Source: Eubacterium sp. (GTDB lineage Bacteria > Bacillota > Clostridia > Oscillospirales > Acutalibacteraceae). Taken from it: a DNA stretch of 55,220 nucleotides. Location: NCBI GenBank assembly GCA_017445905.1, contig JAFSRX010000013.1, positions 79,815-135,034 of the forward strand, written 5' to 3'. Within the stretch, counting starts at the first letter, position 1. Every line of letters starts with the position of its first letter. Shown here piece by piece: positions 46,222-55,220 of the stretch. Both the position numbers and the translations under genes were made by a program. The notes below the pieces were generated by a model. That model was not told the origin of the DNA, made no database searches, and saw only the letters and a program-made list of their open reading frames with translations.

Positions 46222-49002
46222 ATGAAGAAAATTATATCCATATTTCTTTCAATATGTATCATTTTAGTTATAATACCTTTTTCGGATTATGCATTAAGTA
46301 AAACTCCCAATATTGCGCTTGATGAATTTACAGAAGAGCTCAGTGAAATGCAGGAAAAATATGAAGATGAGCCTGTTATAAACAGGCTCATCGTAAAATC
46401 AAAATATAAAATCAATGAACTTGATAGCGTTGATGTTGTTGAGGGTTACAATGATTTGCATATTGTTCAGTTTGATGATTCAGATAGTGCATCAGAAGCA
46501 CTTGAATACTACGAAAACAATCGGCTTATTGAATATGCAGAGGAAGATGCACTTGTAACAATCTTAGATGAACCGGCTGTTTTAGATAATCAGTTGTTTG
46601 GTTATGGAAATCATTTGTCATGGGGCAGCGATTTTATAGGAACAGATGATTACATTGATTGTTTAGAATCGGATTCAGAACTGCCTGAAATAATTGTTGG
46701 AATAATTGATACAGGAATTGATCTTAATCATGAATTTATAAAAGACAGAATAATTAAAACCAACTTTAATATGAGTGACACAGGAATTGAAAACAGCGAG
46801 AATGACGATAAAGGTCACAGTACACATGTTGCAGGAATTATTGTTGATAACACTACCGATAATGTTAAAATAGAGGGATATAAAGTTTTGAACAGCAAAG
46901 GCGCGGGCACTGTGTCTACAGTATCAGTAGCAGTTGAAACGGCGGTTGCAAATGGTGTTGATGTTATTAATATGAGCCTTGGTGCTAAAGGTCAAAGCCA
47001 AATGCTTGAAGAATCAGTAAACGCTGCGGTTGAAAGTGGGGTAACTGTTTGTGTTGCGGCTGGAAATAGCGGAGTCGATTGTTCAAAACATACACCAGCA
47101 AATATTGAAAGCTGTATTACGGTTGCAGCAACAGGACAGGATTATTCGATTCCCGTATGGTCAAACTGGGGAGAAGGAATAGATGTTATTGCACCCGGAG
47201 TTTTAATTTACAGTTCTTATTTGGATAACTCTTACAAAAACTCAAGCGGGACTTCTATGGCTAGCCCATTTGTCGCAGCAAGTGCTGCGCTTCTACTTAG
47301 TGCGGATTCAACATTAACAAGCGAAGCAATAATCAGCTGTTTTGAGGAGTACGGTTACTATCCTGAAATAAATACTCATTATAATAATCCATATGATACA
47401 TATTTCCACCGAAGACCTTATCTATATATTGGAACGGTTCATCACCTTGAAAAAGAAAGAACTAAAAAACCTGTAATAAGTGTAGAAAGCGGCTATTATT
47501 CAGACGAAATAACAGTAGAAATAACATGCGAAGAGGAAGCAGATATTTATTATACGCTTGATGGTTCACGCTGTACTGAGGAAAATGGTTTTCTCTATAC
47601 AGAACCTATTTTAATTCATTCCGCAACACATTTACGAGTGATAGCCATTGCTCAAAATAAAGTGAAAAGTTTACAGGCAACTGCTGATTATTATATGACA
47701 AGTACCGACCCTGAATCTAATTTTACAATAGATGAAAATGGAATTATAACCGAGTATAAGGGCAATAATGATTATTTAAACATACCTGATTCAATTAATG
47801 GAATAACGGTTAGGGGCATTGGCGATAATGTTTTCAGAGGTTCTTCTATTGTCATGATTAAACTTCCTGACACTTTAAATACTGTAGGCTACAGGGCATT
47901 TCGAAACTGTACTGATTTATATAGTTTTGAGTGTGAGAATTTGAAAAAAGTAGGGAAAGAAGGTTTCTATTTCTGTAAAGCACTTGCAAAAATTGATTTA
48001 TCAAATCTTGAAGAAGTTGGGGATTACGGCTTCTTGGATTGTAGCAGTATTAATGAATTGAATAATGACAAATTAACAGTAATTAATAAATACGCTTTTT
48101 CACGTTTAACTGATGCAGTAAGCATTAATCTTCCAAATGTTAAAAGAATTGAAATGAACGGTCTTGACCAAAACTTAATGGCAAACTCATTAATTATTCC
48201 AAGTGTTGAATTTTTGGGAAGAAGTGCAATACGAGGACTGTATCTTGTTCAAGAGCTTGAAGTGCCAAATTTAAAAGAGATGAGTGATTTAGGATACCAG
48301 TTCTGGAGTATGAGTTCTTTAACAGAAGTTGCTTTGCCTGCCTTTGAAGGAATAATACCAAAGGAAGCTTTCGCATATTGCACTTCGCTCAGCAGTGTTA
48401 ATATCTCAAAAGCAACAGAAATAAAAGAAAGTGCTTTTATAGGTTGCAATAGTTTGAAAAGTATTGATTTAGACAATAGTCTTTCCAGTGTTGGCGTAAA
48501 TGCGTTTAAAAGTTGTTTAAGTTTAACAGACGTATTTTATGACGGTATTGAAAACGAATGGAATAGTATTCAAATTGAAAAAGGAAACGATTATCTGAAA
48601 TCTGCAACAATTTATTATTCTCTGGACAACACAGTTTTACTTGCAGCGATTGCACAAGCAAAAGCCTGCTCAAACGCTGAGTACACAAAAGAATCTCTTG
48701 AAGCTTTATATGCTTTTGCAGATAGTTTTATTTCATTAGCAAACAGCCACGCTGAGCAAAGCGAATATGATGCAACTGTTGCGCAGATACTTGATGCTAT
48801 TGGGCGTTTAGATTCGCTTTCAAATTATGAAATAACTTCTTTTGACGGCACAGTTATAACCTTAACAAATAAATATGAAAAGACAACTGCATTAACATTT
48901 TCGGATTTTGTGAATAAAAATTGTAAATCACTTGATGTTGTTTCCGATGGAGTTGTTAACGCAAAGGACTATGCATATCTTATCAAGAATTATTCTGAAT
49001 AA
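46222..49002 (+). CDS. Secreted subtilisin-family (S8) protease with BspA-like repeats and half-dockerin tail
   Basis: 926 aa. Signal peptide at 1-26 and an inhibitor-I9-like propeptide at about 30-115. The S8 domain has Asp163 (IIDTG), His199 (GHSTHVAG), Asn282 (AAGNSG) and Ser345 (SSGTSMASP). Residues about 415-495 look like a chitobiase C-terminal/CHB_HEX domain (GYYSDEITVEI, YYTLDGSRCTE). About 510-790 are BspA/LRR_5 repeats (IGDNVFRGSS, YRAFRNCTDL, GVNAFKSCLSL). A FIVAR-like helical part follows, then a single EF-hand-like dockerin loop (DVVSDGVVNAKDYAYLIKNY). It acts outside the cell. GAGGGAGTG precedes ATG. Confidence 0.87.
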   Translation: MKKIISIFLSICIILVIIPFSDYALSKTPNIALDEFTEELSEMQEKYEDEPVINRLIVKSKYKINELDSVDVVEGYNDLHIVQFDDSDSASEALEYYENNRLIEYAEEDALVTILDEPAVLDNQLFGYGNHLSWGSDFIGTDDYIDCLESDSELPEIIVGIIDTGIDLNHEFIKDRIIKTNFNMSDTGIENSENDDKGHSTHVAGIIVDNTTDNVKIEGYKVLNSKGAGTVSTVSVAVETAVANGVDVINMSLGAKGQSQMLEESVNAAVESGVTVCVAAGNSGVDCSKHTPANIESCITVAATGQDYSIPVWSNWGEGIDVIAPGVLIYSSYLDNSYKNSSGTSMASPFVAASAALLLSADSTLTSEAIISCFEEYGYYPEINTHYNNPYDTYFHRRPYLYIGTVHHLEKERTKKPVISVESGYYSDEITVEITCEEEADIYYTLDGSRCTEENGFLYTEPILIHSATHLRVIAIAQNKVKSLQATADYYMTSTDPESNFTIDENGIITEYKGNNDYLNIPDSINGITVRGIGDNVFRGSSIVMIKLPDTLNTVGYRAFRNCTDLYSFECENLKKVGKEGFYFCKALAKIDLSNLEEVGDYGFLDCSSINELNNDKLTVINKYAFSRLTDAVSINLPNVKRIEMNGLDQNLMANSLIIPSVEFLGRSAIRGLYLVQELEVPNLKEMSDLGYQFWSMSSLTEVALPAFEGIIPKEAFAYCTSLSSVNISKATEIKESAFIGCNSLKSIDLDNSLSSVGVNAFKSCLSLTDVFYDGIENEWNSIQIEKGNDYLKSATIYYSLDNTVLLAAIAQAKACSNAEYTKESLEALYAFADSFISLANSHAEQSEYDATVAQILDAIGRLDSLSNYEITSFDGTVITLTNKYEKTTALTFSDFVNKNCKSLDVVSDGVVNAKDYAYLIKNYSE

Positions 49003-49389: not shown

Positions 49390-49476
49390 GTGAATGAAAA
49401 ATGTGAATCGCTTGATGTTGTTGATGACGGAATAGTAAACGCAAAGGATTATGCTTATTTAATCAGAAATTACTAA
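49390..49476 (+). pseudogene. Orphan dockerin-like fragment, remnant of a duplicated protease end
   Basis: Frame 49390-49476 reads ESLDVVDDGIVNAKDYAYLI then RNY-stop, nearly the same as the C-terminus of the protease just upstream (DVVSDGVVNAKDYAYLIKNY). It has only a possible GTG start and no signal peptide. It is best read as the leftover 3' end of a lost neighbour gene or a duplicated module. Confidence 0.65.
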
Positions 49477-50967: not shown

Positions 50968-51513
50968 TCAACTTTGCTTTATCCTGTTCAGCGCATTCTT
51001 TTCAAGACGGCTTACCTGAGCTTGTGAAATGCCGATTTCCTCGGCGGTTTCCATCTGTGTTTTTCCCTGCATAAAGCGCATATAGAGTATTTTGTGTTCG
51101 CGTTCATCAAGTGATTTCAGCTCGTCCTTAATCATTATTTCATCAATCCAGTCAGTGTCGGAGTTGTTGTCGCCAAGCTGATCCATAACATAAATCGTAT
51201 CTCCGCCATCGTTATATACCGGCTCATAAAGGGATACGGGGTCAACAATCGCCTCAAGCGCTATAACAACATCGCTTTTTTTCATATCAAGTTCTTTAGC
51301 AATCTCTTCAACGGTTGGTTCGCTCCCTCTTTCATTGGTCAGCTTTTCTTTAACCTGCATTGCCTTATATGCCGTGTCCCTCATAGACCTGCTGACTCTG
51401 ACAGGGTTGGAGTCCCTTAAAAATCTTCTGACTTCGCCGATGCACATTGGCACAGGGTGTACCTTGGGGAAAAACGTGTTATTTTTATTAACGAAAGCCC
51501 TGAAATCCAGCAT
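50968..51513 (-). CDS. sigG: RNA polymerase sporulation sigma factor SigG, C-terminal part only (interrupted gene)
   Basis: The ORF has 181 codons, of which about the last 160 are SigG. GEVRRFLRDSNPVRVSRSMR (end of region 2.4/3.0), DPVSLYEPVYNDGGDTIYVM and GKTQMETAEEIGISQAQVSR (region 4.2) are diagnostic of SigG rather than SigF. Intact SigG has about 257-260 residues. Regions 1.2-2.3 and part of 2.4 are missing. The first 18 or so codons (MLDFRAFVNKNNTFFPKV) bear no likeness to the expected FDLxxNVKFSTYA and are supplied by foreign DNA. ATG 51513 abuts the recombinase stop (TAAATG) and has no ribosome site of its own. The fragment cannot bind core polymerase or melt a promoter, so SigG should be inactive unless the element is removed. 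Confidence 0.9.
   Translation of the reverse strand: MLDFRAFVNKNNTFFPKVHPVPMCIGEVRRFLRDSNPVRVSRSMRDTAYKAMQVKEKLTNERGSEPTVEEIAKELDMKKSDVVIALEAIVDPVSLYEPVYNDGGDTIYVMDQLGDNNSDTDWIDEIMIKDELKSLDEREHKILYMRFMQGKTQMETAEEIGISQAQVSRLEKNALNRIKQS
51436..51451. other. Candidate recombination core at the sigG junction
   Basis: On the sigG sense strand, GCCAATGTGCATCGGC: arms GCCAATG and CATCGGC are inverted repeats at 6 of 7 positions around a central TG, the layout of serine-recombinase crossover sites. It falls in the VPM-C-IG codons, just where homology to SigG ends going upstream. Exact crossover not proven. Confidence 0.4.
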
Positions 51514-52938
51514 TTAAGCCGCTTTTTCCGATTTGCTTTCGTTTGCGTTTATAAATGTATAGTAAATTTTAACTTCATCTTCTCCGATTACAACCTTTTC
51601 AACACAAGAACGTATCATTGTCTGTCTTTCAAGGTCGTTCATCGTTTCCCAAGTGTCTTTAATGTTGACTACTTCGTTAACAATGAAGTCGATTGTATTG
51701 TTTGTTCTTTGTGTTTCTTCTTCAAATGCATAATCATCTTTAAGCATTGAAAGCTCTTGTTCAAACTCTGCTTTCATATTAATAAAAGTGTTTTCGTCAA
51801 TTATTCCGCTTGTAAAAGCACGAACAAGATTATTAATCTGGTTTTCTTTGAATTTGATTTGCTTTTCTAATTCTTTTAACGGATTAACAATAGTAGGTTC
51901 CTTGTACCCTTTATTTGCGTTTTTAAGATTAACTGAAATGTTGAACAAATCATTGATAACAATGTCTTCTATTTCCGTCGCCCATACAGGACTATTATTG
52001 CAATTATCCGACTTATGCATATATTTCTTGTCTTTATGGCGAGTATAGCAACAAAGCTTATATTTTCCTTTTCCCCAATTCATATATCGCATTCGGGAAC
52101 CGCAACTGCAATATATCAATCCTGATAATAAATGATTCTTTGTTGTTGCTCTCGCGCCCGTTGAGCGTCGCTTCATTTCCTCTTGCACAAGGTCATACAA
52201 TTCCTGTGTGATGAGTGCTTGATGTTTTCCGTTATACACCTCGCCCTTATGCTCTATCAATCCGAGATAGACCTTGTGGGTAAGTATTCCAATTACGAGT
52301 CTATCATATTTCAAATCAAGTATATTAGCAATTCTCTGAGGTGAGTATCCCTCTAAATACATTTTATATATCTTGATTACATTTTCTGCCTTATCGTTTG
52401 GCACCAATATTTTTTGTGACGGATCATAATCATATCCGTAAGGCGTTGTGCCTCCGCCTCTCCAATATCCTTGTTTTATAATCTCGGTTAAACCGATTCT
52501 TGTTCTTAAATAAATGTTTTCTCTTTCTAACTGAGCAAATACAGATAATATACCTATAAATGCTTTTCCCATAGGGGTTGACGTATCTAAATTCTCGTTT
52601 AAGGATGAAAAAGAAACGCCATTTTTCTCAAAAACATCCTCAATCAGATACATAACATCTTTTTGACTTCTTGAAAGTCGGTCAAGCTTAAATACTATGA
52701 CGCGCTTTATTAATCCCGCTTCTACATCTAATATTAACTGCTGAATATTAGGTCGGTTTAACGAGCTACCTGAAAAGCCGCCGTCAACATAATCCTTTAT
52801 GTTATCCCAACCCTTTATTTCGCAGAAAGAGTGAAGCTTTTCTAACTGCGCAGGAATAGAGTGACCTTCTTCCGCTTGAAACTTTGTTGAAACACGCACG
52901 TAAATCGCGGTGATTTCTTTTTCCGTTTTCTTGTTCAT
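51514..52938 (-). CDS. Large serine recombinase (site-specific)
   Basis: 474 aa. Resolvase/invertase catalytic domain at 1-150 with Ser17 in AIYVRVSTKF, DGGFSGSSLNRPNIQQL, FKLDRLSRSQKD and an ERENIYLRTR end. The recombinase DNA-binding domain follows (GYWRGGGTTPYGYDYDPS), then a zinc ribbon (IYCSCGSRMRY, CCYTRHK) and a coiled-coil insert (about 340-400). Such enzymes integrate and excise phages, ICEs and skin elements, and SpoIVCA is the sigK example. Its stop codon directly touches the ATG of the sigG fragment. GGAGG before ATG 52938 overlaps an inverted repeat that may control it. Confidence 0.94.
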   Translation of the reverse strand: MNKKTEKEITAIYVRVSTKFQAEEGHSIPAQLEKLHSFCEIKGWDNIKDYVDGGFSGSSLNRPNIQQLILDVEAGLIKRVIVFKLDRLSRSQKDVMYLIEDVFEKNGVSFSSLNENLDTSTPMGKAFIGILSVFAQLERENIYLRTRIGLTEIIKQGYWRGGGTTPYGYDYDPSQKILVPNDKAENVIKIYKMYLEGYSPQRIANILDLKYDRLVIGILTHKVYLGLIEHKGEVYNGKHQALITQELYDLVQEEMKRRSTGARATTKNHLLSGLIYCSCGSRMRYMNWGKGKYKLCCYTRHKDKKYMHKSDNCNNSPVWATEIEDIVINDLFNISVNLKNANKGYKEPTIVNPLKELEKQIKFKENQINNLVRAFTSGIIDENTFINMKAEFEQELSMLKDDYAFEEETQRTNNTIDFIVNEVVNIKDTWETMNDLERQTMIRSCVEKVVIGEDEVKIYYTFINANESKSEKAA

Positions 52939-52947
52939 TTTCGACCT

Positions 52948-52999
52948 CCGTTATACATTTTATTTGGTAATGCTATACTATCCGAAATATGTATAACGG
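52948..52999. promoter_or_regulatory. Inverted repeat over the recombinase leader and ribosome site
   Basis: CCGTTATACAT (52948-52958) and ATGTATAACGG (52989-52999) are perfect 11-bp inverted repeats. In the minus-strand mRNA the downstream arm ends in the GG that opens the GGAGG ribosome site. Confidence 0.65.
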
Positions 53000-53016
53000 A
53001 CAATGATGCGATTTTT

Positions 53017-53166
53017 TTAATCGCATTCTTGACAATCTTCGTCTTGATTAGTCAGTCTTAATACAATATTATTCATTAGCTGTATCGCAGCCGGATTTTC
53101 AATTTCTATGTTTTGTAAAGCATCATCTTTTATCTCCTCATCATTCACATAACGCACGATTTTCAT
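53017..53166 (-). CDS. Small acidic protein upstream of the recombinase, 49 aa
   Basis: MKIVRYVNDEEIKDDALQNI begins the likely product; GGAAGGA lies about 12 bases before ATG 53166, and ATG 53178 is an alternative start. The C-terminus is acidic with two Cys (QDEDCQECD). No family was recognised. Position next to the recombinase suggests an accessory or directionality role, but this is guesswork. Confidence 0.5.
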   Translation of the reverse strand: MKIVRYVNDEEIKDDALQNIEIENPAAIQLMNNIVLRLTNQDEDCQECD

Positions 53167-53230
53167 TAACAAACACATTCCTTCCAATTTGAGTATTAAC
53201 ACATTGAGAGAAATATAATCATATATTATA

Positions 53231-53500
53231 GAGAGCGCCACATACTGCAGCGCTCTCCATTATTTAGGGAATAAATGTATGTTTGCTATTTGTCCTCTCA
53301 CACCCTATACATACGAATAGGCATATAGTAAAGCAAGGTGGTCAGCCTTGTCCATAGGAGTTTCACCTGCTATCTTTGGCTTGCTTTCGCAAAAGTATCA
53401 TTGTCCCTTACTGCCTGTCGTCGCATACCCATCGTAACCCTTGATGGCTCGTAGCATGGCATATAGCCACTACGGCTGCTTGTTCATTTGAACAACAGAA
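53231..53500. ncRNA. Hairpin-dense non-coding region (candidate structured RNA or transfer origin)
   Basis: Part of a 585-base stretch (53167-53751) without a convincing gene. Hairpins in order: GAGAGCGC/GCGCTCTC (53231-53257), CCTAT/ATAGG (53304-53321), CAAGG/CCTTG (53334-53350), TTGC/GCAA (53381-53392), CCATC/GATGG (53429-53447), CGTAG plus TGGC with GCCA plus CTACG (53450-53474) and TTGTTC/GAACAA (53480-53495). Strand is unknown. Bases 53500-53713 show nothing clear. Confidence 0.45.
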
Positions 53501-53710
53501 GGAAAGTTTTACTATACGGATATTCAGTTATCAAGGTGCATTGTTTCTTTCCGGCGAAAGATAACAACCTTATTAAACACCCTGAAATACACAAAGTAAA
53601 TACAACGGGTGGCAGAATTAAAACCGCGAAAAATTAGGCATATCAGACAAAATGAGCATTAAGCATTTGTATATAATCAATAAAAAAATGAAATTAAATA
53701 TTGATTATCA

Positions 53711-53745
53711 AGAAAAAAGCGGCGTATTAAATACGCCACTTTTCT
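53711..53745 (-). terminator. Terminator of the HTH-like gene
   Basis: GGCGTAT-TAA-ATACGCC (53721-53737), with a T6 run on the minus strand. Confidence 0.75.
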
Positions 53746-53751
53746 TTGTTT

Positions 53752-54174
53752 TTACTGCTTTCCAAGCTGCTTATATCCGTAATGCTTCAAAACTATATTG
53801 CAATCGGGAATATATGTAAAGCCCGTAATCAGCATCTCTGTTAGTAGCTCTCTGTACATATCTTGAGGTGAAACAGGGACTAAACTATATCTGCCTTTTT
53901 GGAGCAAGCAGCTTGCCTCTGCAAAAGATAATTGCAAGCCAAAGCATATTGTATATGCCGTGTTTTCTCTCGGAACATAATTGCGATCAGCTTTGAGCCG
54001 GTTAAATATATCCTTATTCAAAAAGGTACACATAGAGAACACTCGGCTTGTTGTAATGTTCTTACTTTCGCATAATCTTATTGCCATTTCTGCAAAAGTT
54101 TCACTATTGACCAAGCTTGTGTCCTTATACTTTTTATTGCTTATTAAATCTAAAATTCTTTCTTGATTTTTCAT
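53752..54174 (-). CDS. Helix-turn-helix-like protein of the mobile element
   Basis: 140 aa. ATG 54174 was chosen because AAGGAG lies seven bases before it. The middle part has an XRE-like helix pattern (TTSRVFSMCTFLNKDIFNRL, ENTAYTICFGLQLSFAEASC), followed by LLQKGRYSLVP...YRELLTEMLITGFTYIPDCNIVLKHYGYKQLG. That layout is seen in small Firmicutes HTH proteins which end in a 'long-cycle' helical repeat. No enzyme motif. A perfect inverted repeat (54197-54218) just upstream could be its operator. Confidence 0.55.
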   Translation of the reverse strand: MKNQERILDLISNKKYKDTSLVNSETFAEMAIRLCESKNITTSRVFSMCTFLNKDIFNRLKADRNYVPRENTAYTICFGLQLSFAEASCLLQKGRYSLVPVSPQDMYRELLTEMLITGFTYIPDCNIVLKHYGYKQLGKQ

Positions 54175-54196
54175 CTTAAACTCCTTAATTTTGAAA

Positions 54197-54218
54197 TTCT
54201 TGTTTTTCAAAACAAGAA
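54197..54218. promoter_or_regulatory. Perfect inverted repeat before the HTH-like gene
   Basis: TTCTTGTTTT / AAAACAAGAA (10-bp arms, 2-base centre), 22-44 bases before the start codon. It is a candidate autoregulatory operator or leader hairpin. Confidence 0.55.
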
Positions 54219-54264
54219 GTTATGGATATTCTGCTATAAAAGGTTGCCACTCGAATTTCATTTT

Positions 54265-54389
54265 ATCCTCTTTAATAAAATCAAGAGGATAGTTATAATT
54301 AAAAAACGGTGCATCAAAACAAGGCTACCATAATTCAGAATTAAAAAAAAATCTGAAATATACTATCCTCTGTAATGTGCACGCGTGCA
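54265..54389. repeat. Nested inverted repeats in a gene-free stretch
   Basis: ATCCTCTT (54265-54272) / AAGAGGAT (54283-54290). AGAGGATAGT (54285-54294) also pairs with ACTATCCTCT (54362-54371), so two folds exclude each other. TTCAGA/TCTGAA lie between. TGCACGCGTGCA (54378-54389) is a perfect 12-bp palindrome. No gene seen from 54219 to 54510. Confidence 0.55.
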
Positions 54390-54508
54390 GAATATTTTTT
54401 TATTGGTGTTCTTGCAGTAAATCATTGAATAACGGCAAGAAACGCCCTATGTTAGATTATAATGCAATAAAACCGTATAATTAAGAGAACAATGTCGATG
54501 ATAATAAA

Positions 54509-54544
54509 AAATTCCCCGATACTTGTTAAAGTATCGGGGATCCG
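54509..54544 (-). terminator. Terminator of the 54581 gene
   Basis: TCCCCGATACTT (54513-54524) / AAGTATCGGGGA (54529-54540), a 12-bp perfect stem with a T run on the minus strand. Confidence 0.85.
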
Positions 54545-54580
54545 AAAGAACGGCGAGGAATGTGAAACAAAGTAATTAAA

Positions 54581-54991
54581 TTAGAAATTCTTTATGTTAC
54601 CGTTCTTCCGTAGAAAGCGATTTAATTTTTTCTTATTGCTACGCTTTGAAAAAAGAAAATTATCCTTCGGCATAGCTGCATTAATGTGTTCGTCAAAATC
54701 ATCCGTATCCAAGTCGGTGAGTTTTCCGAGCGCAAAGCCCACGCCGAAAGCGGCGAACGCATACTCGGATTGATAGTCCAGAAGCGCCATATTAATTTCC
54801 GAATCATCATTACCAAGTACTTCCGGATTTTCCCTTACTGCATCAATGAAATTTGTAAACACATTCGAGCCTTTATTTATTGCATCAAGGTTAGGCAAAT
54901 ACCTTGTAGTTGCATCCTCATAAAAGCGCTCAAACAGTTTTCTCAGCTGAGCAAGGTCAATTTTGTTTGATATATCCTTTTTGTTATTCAT
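54581..54991 (-). CDS. Hypothetical protein of the mobile element, about 136 aa
   Basis: Mostly helical and acidic (LAQLRKLFERFYEDATTRYL, NPEVLGNDDSEINMALLDYQ), with a short Gly/Ala-rich segment (YAFAAFGVGFALGKL) and a strongly basic C-terminus (SKRSNKKKLNRFLRKNG). It resembles small accessory genes of ICEs and plasmids in size and style, but no family was recognised. ATG 54991 was chosen; TTG 55006 is possible, and neither has a good ribosome site. A clear terminator follows. Confidence 0.55.
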   Translation of the reverse strand: MNNKKDISNKIDLAQLRKLFERFYEDATTRYLPNLDAINKGSNVFTNFIDAVRENPEVLGNDDSEINMALLDYQSEYAFAAFGVGFALGKLTDLDTDDFDEHINAAMPKDNFLFSKRSNKKKLNRFLRKNGNIKNF

Positions 54992-55065
54992 ATCTCTAAA
55001 CAGCAACCTAATTCATCTTACCATTGATTTTATAGATGTAGGTTAATATACCTTTCTTCAATCTT

Positions 55066-55122
55066 TTTGATTCAAATCACAGCATTTGAAAGAACGAAAA
55101 AGGCGCAATGCTCTGAATCAAA
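55066..55122. repeat. Two-part inverted repeat
   Basis: TTTGATTCA (55066-55074) / TGAATCAAA (55114-55122) encloses AGCATT (55081-55086) / AATGCT (55107-55112), giving a bulged cruciform of 57 bases upstream of the minus-strand gene. Confidence 0.5.
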
Positions 55123-55160
55123 TATACGCACTGCACCTATTAATACTTTTACAAAAAGGG

Positions 55161-55189
55161 TTGACAAAAGAAAAGGACAGAATTATCCT
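55161..55189 (+). promoter_or_regulatory. Possible rightward promoter before the TGAC repeat
   Basis: TTGACA (55161-55166), 17 bases, TATCCT (55184-55189). It would transcribe out of the window. Confidence 0.4.
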
Positions 55190-55220
55190 TGACTGACTGA
55201 CTGACTGACTGACTGTCTGA
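55190..55220. repeat. Tetranucleotide repeat (TGAC), cut by the window edge
   Basis: Six perfect TGAC units at 55190-55213, then TGTC and TGA to the end of the window. Confidence 0.9.

Follow-up and report, generated by a model that had tools for sequence, protein, structure and literature searches.

The gene for the forespore sigma factor SigG is split in a 55,220-nucleotide stretch of DNA from Eubacterium sp. (GenBank assembly GCA_017445905.1, contig JAFSRX010000013.1; the whole stretch is referred to as the window), and the same break, next to related large serine recombinases, recurs in other genera. We consider it likely that a serine-recombinase module driven by sigma-F rebuilds sigG in the forespore, the cell with the inherited chromosome, by attL × attR recombination between attachment (att) half-sites. 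More tentative, and a view that we do not quite favour, is the wider proposal that in several genera sigG is broken in growth, rebuilt by sigma-F-driven recombination in the forespore (with one lineage inverting ∼757 kb) and broken once more when the spore has germinated, which would make it an obligatory, reversible rearrangement of the germ line repeated with each generation of spores. The sequence itself shows that sigG is split at a shared codon with att architecture at the break, that both halves are under selection and that the recombinase accompanies split sigG; in many relatives it also shows a conserved small open reading frame (ORF) and the type of promoter.

The divided gene and its recurrence

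In the window the 3′ half of sigG (C-half) is contained in a chimeric ORF on the minus strand. The original prediction, made from the sequence of the window, held that SigG homology starts abruptly at VPM behind foreign codons and that a recombinase gene ends exactly where the chimeric ORF begins. Both statements are borne out: the match to the SigG profile begins at VPM (E 2.6e-74), and the recombinase gene stops immediately before the ATG of the chimeric ORF. The features of the locus are as follows.

50968..51453, minus strand: 3′ half of sigG, from VPM in region 2.4 to the C-terminus; columns 89–252 of TIGR02850/PRK08215
50968..51513, minus strand: chimeric ORF of 181 amino acids, the first 20 foreign and encoded by the element
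51449..51455, minus strand: CTGTGCC core of the right att half-site; same core at the 5′ half on contig C59
51456..51477, minus strand: attP-type arm, an inverted repeat of the arm at the other end; similar arms in relatives
51514..52938, minus strand: large serine recombinase, 474 amino acids; Resolvase, Recombinase and Zn-ribbon domains, PHROG integrase, placed on a tree
53017..53166, minus strand: small RYxNG-type protein, 49 amino acids, candidate recombination directionality factor; profile match and alignment
53191..53220, minus strand: weak sigma-F-type promoter candidate GATTA-N15-GTTAATACTC upstream of the small ORF, score 8/11
53752..54210, minus strand: ORF of 152 amino acids in the element, without a Pfam match
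54581..55006, minus strand: ORF of 141 amino acids in the element, without a Pfam match

The window corresponds to G000:C63:79815-135034, and its right edge is the end of contig C63, a point inside the foreign DNA that interrupts sigG. The missing 5′ half (N-half), which had been expected to end in FSTYA, is found in a consistent orientation on C59 (144328-144633, plus strand), ∼0.9 kb short of the end of that contig. It reads ...FSTYAVPM and continues into foreign DNA with a 185-residue ORF and a ParA-like gene that is cut by the contig end. Both junctions share the core CTGTGCC, and the arms at the two element ends are inverted repeats with 16 of 22 positions identical. Joining the halves at the core gives a frame of 256 codons that aligns without gaps to the intact sigG of four genomes of the same genus. 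A search of this assembly yielded no intact sigG, in keeping with the prediction that a second copy is absent; the other sigma matches are SigF, SigE and SigK (checked), and in our own reading a 374-residue frame is SigA-like and a further protein is SigH-like. Because the orientations of both halves match, we infer that one insertion of at least ∼4.7 kb bridges the ends of C59 and C63, its middle being unassembled. The description as skin-like stands for the retained halves, the recombinase and the att half-sites; that the window's element is a single contiguous one is suggested by its two matching ends.

The closest relatives of the recombinase in an initial search of 300 genomes of the window's family adjoin sigG halves in other genera. 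Among genomes of named species, 206 recombinase relatives were obtained and the best 80 loci were kept, with sigG halves called using a 50% identity filter. A half is present in 61 of these 80 loci. The 3′ end of the recombinase gene lies 18–94 bp from the break in 56 of them (38 at the C-half and 18 at the N-half), in five the half is farther off and in 19 there is none. Reading of the junctions places the break at the same codon in 32/32 N-halves and 42/42 C-halves, and a GAAA/TTTC arm motif is found at the expected distance at 30/32 N junctions and 40/42 C junctions. The ends of tblastn matches at residue 98 were dropped as proof of a common break, since the query sequences stopped at that residue. 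The group-B recombinases of G075 and G186 are only 27–29% identical to that of the window, yet sit at the same sigG break. An assembly chimera at 51.45 kb, raised in the original prediction, is very unlikely because many other genomes show the same break beside a related recombinase, with both halves on a single contig in 19 genomes.

We inspected 30 genomes behind the 80 loci; the choice favoured isolates, long contigs and loci lacking a sigG half. In 29 of them (all except G326) the two halves are apart and there is no full-length match at the level of SigG; in one of the 29, G327, the C piece is only partial. Full-length matches of 28–45% identity in the split genomes are taken by us, on the analogy of the window's genome, to be SigF and SigA. 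With the exception of G316, the G316-type genomes and G317, G318, G323, G325, G328 and G329 (loci L127, L132, L151, L093, L128 and L139) have a split sigG with no half near the fetched recombinase locus, and here the recombinase may act in trans.

A SigG match at E ≤ 1e-46 was obtained for 138 of the 160 genomes sampled from the window's family. Of these matches 130 are near full length (two are listed with one in-frame stop), four are split (G000, G075, G097 and G186) and four are partial. G094 is without a match at this level, but its N-half is cut at the common position; G083 and G136 are split as well. Split genomes number 11 of 20 in the genus of Flavonifractor sp. AGMB03687, the other nine being intact. 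In the genus of Agathobaculum massiliense both halves lie apart in 20 of 25 genomes, a single half is seen in three and two are intact or nearly so; identical coordinates served to match the named strains to their genomes. At E ≤ 1e-60 none of the 11 intact genomes from these two genera has the recombinase and five of six split ones do (the sixth, G539, showed the N-half only). One genome of the Flavonifractor-type genus, G515, carries two full-length sigG copies (on C48 and C167) without a recombinase, possibly through contamination of the bin.

Three side observations concern the loci themselves. L122, from a metagenome-assembled genome labelled Candidatus Methanovirga, holds a sigG half and a related recombinase on a contig assigned to an archaeal bin, most likely by mistake. 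In L080 and six similar Flavonifractor-type loci the 6.4-kb element between the halves holds more genes besides the recombinase, in our reading alcohol dehydrogenase, ferredoxin, aldehyde ferredoxin oxidoreductase, MoaD and ThiF-type genes. Several elements encode a second protein of ∼185 residues, mostly starting MTRK or MTRN, at the end away from the recombinase. Within the window's family this protein occurs in four of 249 other genomes, every one adjoining a split sigG, and outside the family at further loci (11 of 109 searched); its match to a homing-endonuclease repeat is below the cut-off.

Layouts, descent and selection

Both halves lie on one contig in 19 genomes among the 30 inspected and those of the two genera. 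Isolates with such a layout include Flavonifractor sp. AGMB03687 and An82 (direct, 6.4 kb) and Pseudoflavonifractor phocaeensis An507 (inverted, 3.7 kb). The layout is of the excision type in 13 of them, with a contiguous insert of 0.42 to 170 kb. It is of the inversion type in five (three of 3.7 kb, one of 26 kb and one of 757 kb, the last in a single-contig genome of 4.0 Mb), and some lineages would accordingly be able to restore sigG solely by inversion, a route that could not be seen from the window. The remaining layout (G300, 112 kb) is permuted. In this A. massiliense genome (G300/G523:C2) the N-half is at 296939 and the C-half at 408916, both on the minus strand and in the wrong order, and joining them would place sigG on a 112-kb circle. 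The order is possibly a scaffolding error.

Three Agathobaculum/Butyricicoccus genomes have, downstream of the N-half, genes that we read from their translations as an amidohydrolase and a purine nucleoside phosphorylase. In the two of these with an annotated C side, the recombinase and, in the same reading, a phosphate acetyltransferase gene precede the C-half. As an acetyltransferase homologue adjoins sigG in two intact relatives, it is probably the N-half that has moved away.

With Agathobaculum-type halves at least 112 kb apart or on different contigs and both conserved, the halves could be translated separately and act jointly. SigO and RsoA form such a two-part sigma factor in Bacillus subtilis, and an in-frame ATG at the break of the C-half is present in many loci. 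A Shine–Dalgarno-like motif precedes a start near the break in only one of 42 C-halves, the cut falls in the conserved region 2 helix, and the att arms and adjoining recombinase would be left unexplained. On this sequence test we reject the two-polypeptide factor as highly improbable.

In a tree of C-halves the rows of the 11 split Flavonifractor-type species form one clade (support 100/99), within which the three inverted ones are a subclade (97/92). The 16-row Agathobaculum-type clade (100/100) consists of 14 split and two intact rows; its inner branching is weak, and the nesting of the intact rows among split ones suggests loss. The recombinase tree tracks host groups in its large clades. 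The ratio of nonsynonymous to synonymous polymorphism (pN/pS), calculated for split loci only, has a median of 0.047 for each half of ten Flavonifractor-type loci; the medians of 16 Agathobaculum-type C-halves and of five N-side loci are 0.075 and 0.115, respectively, and the halves tested are free of internal stops. These values indicate that both halves are under strong purifying selection. A spoIVA match is present in 29 of 30 split genomes and a gpr match in 26 of 30, and the window's genome has both genes. Loss of sporulation, one of three explanations in the original prediction, is disfavoured for the family by this selection and by the retained spore genes.

The recombinase of the window has its three domains in the order Resolvase, Recombinase, Zn-ribbon, all above the cut-off. 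Its Ser17, invariant in an alignment of four sequences, corresponds to the conserved catalytic serine of large serine recombinases, and a match to the XisF model is far below the cut-off of that model. On the tree it falls inside the sigG-associated Oscillospiraceae rows (support 98/86 with the nearest five and 99/89 with 19), its exact place being uncertain because of its long branch (1.19). No phage or plasmid source was found: all 908 phage records obtained and the best-scoring 5000 plasmid records are less than 60% identical. Among 20 relatives on viral contigs one has a sigG half within the stretch fetched.

The second original explanation was a parasite that blocks sporulation. In its plain form, a mobile element would exploit the conserved sigG site and the gene would remain dead until the element departs. 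The intact sigG of four relatives in the window's genus, the few split genomes in its family, the ParA-like gene on the window's element and the long branch of its recombinase all suit this explanation. It is at odds with the purifying selection on both halves in clades that inherit the split, with the spore genes kept by most split genomes and with the sigG-type promoter before the module in many lineages, and we regard it as improbable for the family. It may still hold for the window's own strain, the copy of which looks like a younger, mobile member of the split-sigG family and was probably inserted recently, given the four intact genus mates; a parasite origin is the best fit here. The third explanation, a reversible switch, fits the clades that keep the split through speciation.

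A proposed module for rebuilding sigG in the forespore

A small protein with the pattern M..[IV].R[YF].N is encoded directly upstream of most of these recombinases. A profile built from 44 seeds, with the window's protein left out, matches 66 of 86 loci at E ≤ 0.05 (44 being the seeds), among them that of the window at 1.4e-7, and matches nothing in the remainder of the loci. The protein has no match in Pfam, NCBIfam or PHROG. A fold model is of modest confidence (mean predicted local distance difference test score 75.5, predicted template modelling score 0.43). From its position and conservation it is a candidate recombination directionality factor. Between the small ORF and the next gene of the window's element lies an Rfam pemK RNA motif (RF02913, 40.4 bits, 53352-53404, minus strand).

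The 75 bases before the small ORF were scored against a sigma-F-type consensus, GYWTA N14–16 GGNNANANTR, with a maximum of 11. A score of at least 9 is reached in 32 of 45 upstream stretches (200 shuffles: mean 4.7, maximum 12) and, with position restricted, in 15 of 25 hand-chosen lineage representatives (500 shuffles: mean 1.4, maximum 5). The score is reached by sigG itself in 25 of 30 loci, and a sigma-A match before the small ORF is slightly above shuffles (7/500 as high). Sigma-F promoters of Epulopiscium, that of sigG included, have the same form, and sigG is tabulated as a forespore gene (PMC3416734). In many lineages the kind of promoter in front of the module is indicative of the forespore.

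The sequence of events that we propose starts from a sigG divided by a module that comprises a large serine recombinase, the small RYxNG protein encoded ahead of it in most relatives, and att half-sites lying within sigG. In the forespore, sigma-F would turn on the small protein and the recombinase. With the small protein as directionality factor, attL and attR would recombine, and the intervening DNA would be excised or, in some lineages, inverted to leave an intact sigG; production of SigG and expression of the late forespore genes would follow. Since the next generation receives this chromosome, the joined form would have to be undone after germination or the module would be lost. A plausible route back is that the recombinase without its small partner favours attB × attP. 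We infer from the DNA that recombination takes place, in what cell type it does so, what the small protein does and that the split form is regained.

Several findings weigh against this mechanism. The expected 'on' state, a recombinase together with an intact sigG, was not found among the 11 intact genomes of the two genera, and the permuted layout (1/19) is hard to fit. The recombinase is away from any sigG half in 19 of 80 loci, and in G324 action in trans must be assumed because the 0.42-kb insert holds no recombinase gene, which sits elsewhere in the genome. No small-protein match is found in 20 of 86 loci (three of them with less than 100 bases of upstream DNA); the group-B recombinase of L019 is without the small protein and that of L027 has a marginal match only. 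As to the promoter, 25% of 288 control gene starts reach the same score, the candidate in the window is not significant alone (792/2000 shuffles score as high) and the L076 group has none. Finally, excision from an inherited chromosome risks losing the element.

Phase variation would dispense with control in the forespore: the recombinase would flip sigG between split and joined forms at low frequency during growth, and the few pre-switched cells would sporulate. Serine recombinases can drive inversions, and the inverted layouts in five of 19 genomes are consistent with such flipping. It does not account for the promoter, of the same type as that of sigG, which most lineages have upstream of the small ORF, and the circle lost from the 13 excision-type layouts could not come back. 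The joined form together with the recombinase is likewise missing from the 11 intact genomes. We consider phase variation unlikely, if somewhat less so than the parasite, and retain rebuilding in the forespore as the preferred reading.

Related systems and neighbouring features

The closest known systems are the sigK skin elements. In Bacillus subtilis and in Clostridioides difficile (PMC5025042), a sporulation sigma gene is likewise split by DNA with a serine recombinase and rejoined in frame. The C. difficile element pairs a large serine recombinase with a separate directionality factor, as proposed for the sigG module; the recombinase is constitutive, the directionality factor is mother-cell specific and the authors stress that the cell is terminal (PMC5025042). 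The sigG family differs in that the candidate small protein is encoded immediately upstream of the recombinase, behind a sigma-F-type promoter in many lineages, and some lineages need inversion rather than excision. Moreover, sigK acts in the mother cell, which dies, whereas sigG acts in the forespore, which is inherited. The family would work like skin in its parts and logic, but in a gene of a non-terminal cell. In cyanobacterial heterocysts, programmed excision restores a gene in a differentiating, terminal cell. The likeness to the sigG proposal is restoration in a differentiating cell; the heterocyst is terminal and the forespore is not. A further likeness is the match of the window's recombinase to the XisF model, far below its cut-off. 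Heterocyst elements are mentioned in PMC5025042.

Other elements that interrupt sporulation genes are SP-beta in spsM (PMC4191935), gin in gerE (PMC5595907) and yin in yabG (PMC10747680), with rejoining during sporulation described for the first two. In the available parts of these sources their targets are other genes, none a forespore sigma factor, and inversion-type and chromosome-scale layouts like those of the sigG family are not mentioned. The flagellar switch of C. difficile (PMC8890394, PMC5386303) resembles the inverted sigG layouts in that site-specific inversion toggles a function. Its inverted segment lies upstream of an operon, whereas in sigG the coding sequence of the sigma factor is divided and the layouts imply that an inversion would be needed. 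A screen for endospore formers yielded Flavonifractor plautii (PMC10655253). Full-text searches of an open-access library with few subscription papers and no preprints gave the skin, SP-beta, gin and yin elements and no split sigG, the novelty of which is likely, not certain.

The programmed rearrangements of sporulation known to us act in the mother cell, which dies, and heritability is no issue there. A split forespore sigma gene moves the rearrangement into the cell that founds the next generation, and spore formation in these lineages probably requires DNA rearrangement in that cell. If this is true, a DNA-level checkpoint is added between sigma-F and sigma-G, and the undoing of a germ-line rearrangement in each generation becomes directly testable. 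The split could make species appear to be without sigG in genome surveys, and the pairs of small protein and recombinase may serve as DNA-switch tools.

Some further features were noted. The mother-cell gene spoIVA is also apparently split, near profile column 400, in three of 35 genomes (G319:C6:21962-40629, with L238; G507:C13:22670-70494, with L239 and L240; and G322, on contigs C3 and C24). Both G319 and G507 have a different serine recombinase at the far end, which is either in frame with the C-terminal piece of SpoIVA or immediately ahead of it. Outside the element, positions 46222-49002 of the window encode a subtilisin-like protein that in our reading has an apparent C-terminal dockerin-type repeat, and a second dockerin-like fragment, again in our reading, is found just downstream (49400-49475).

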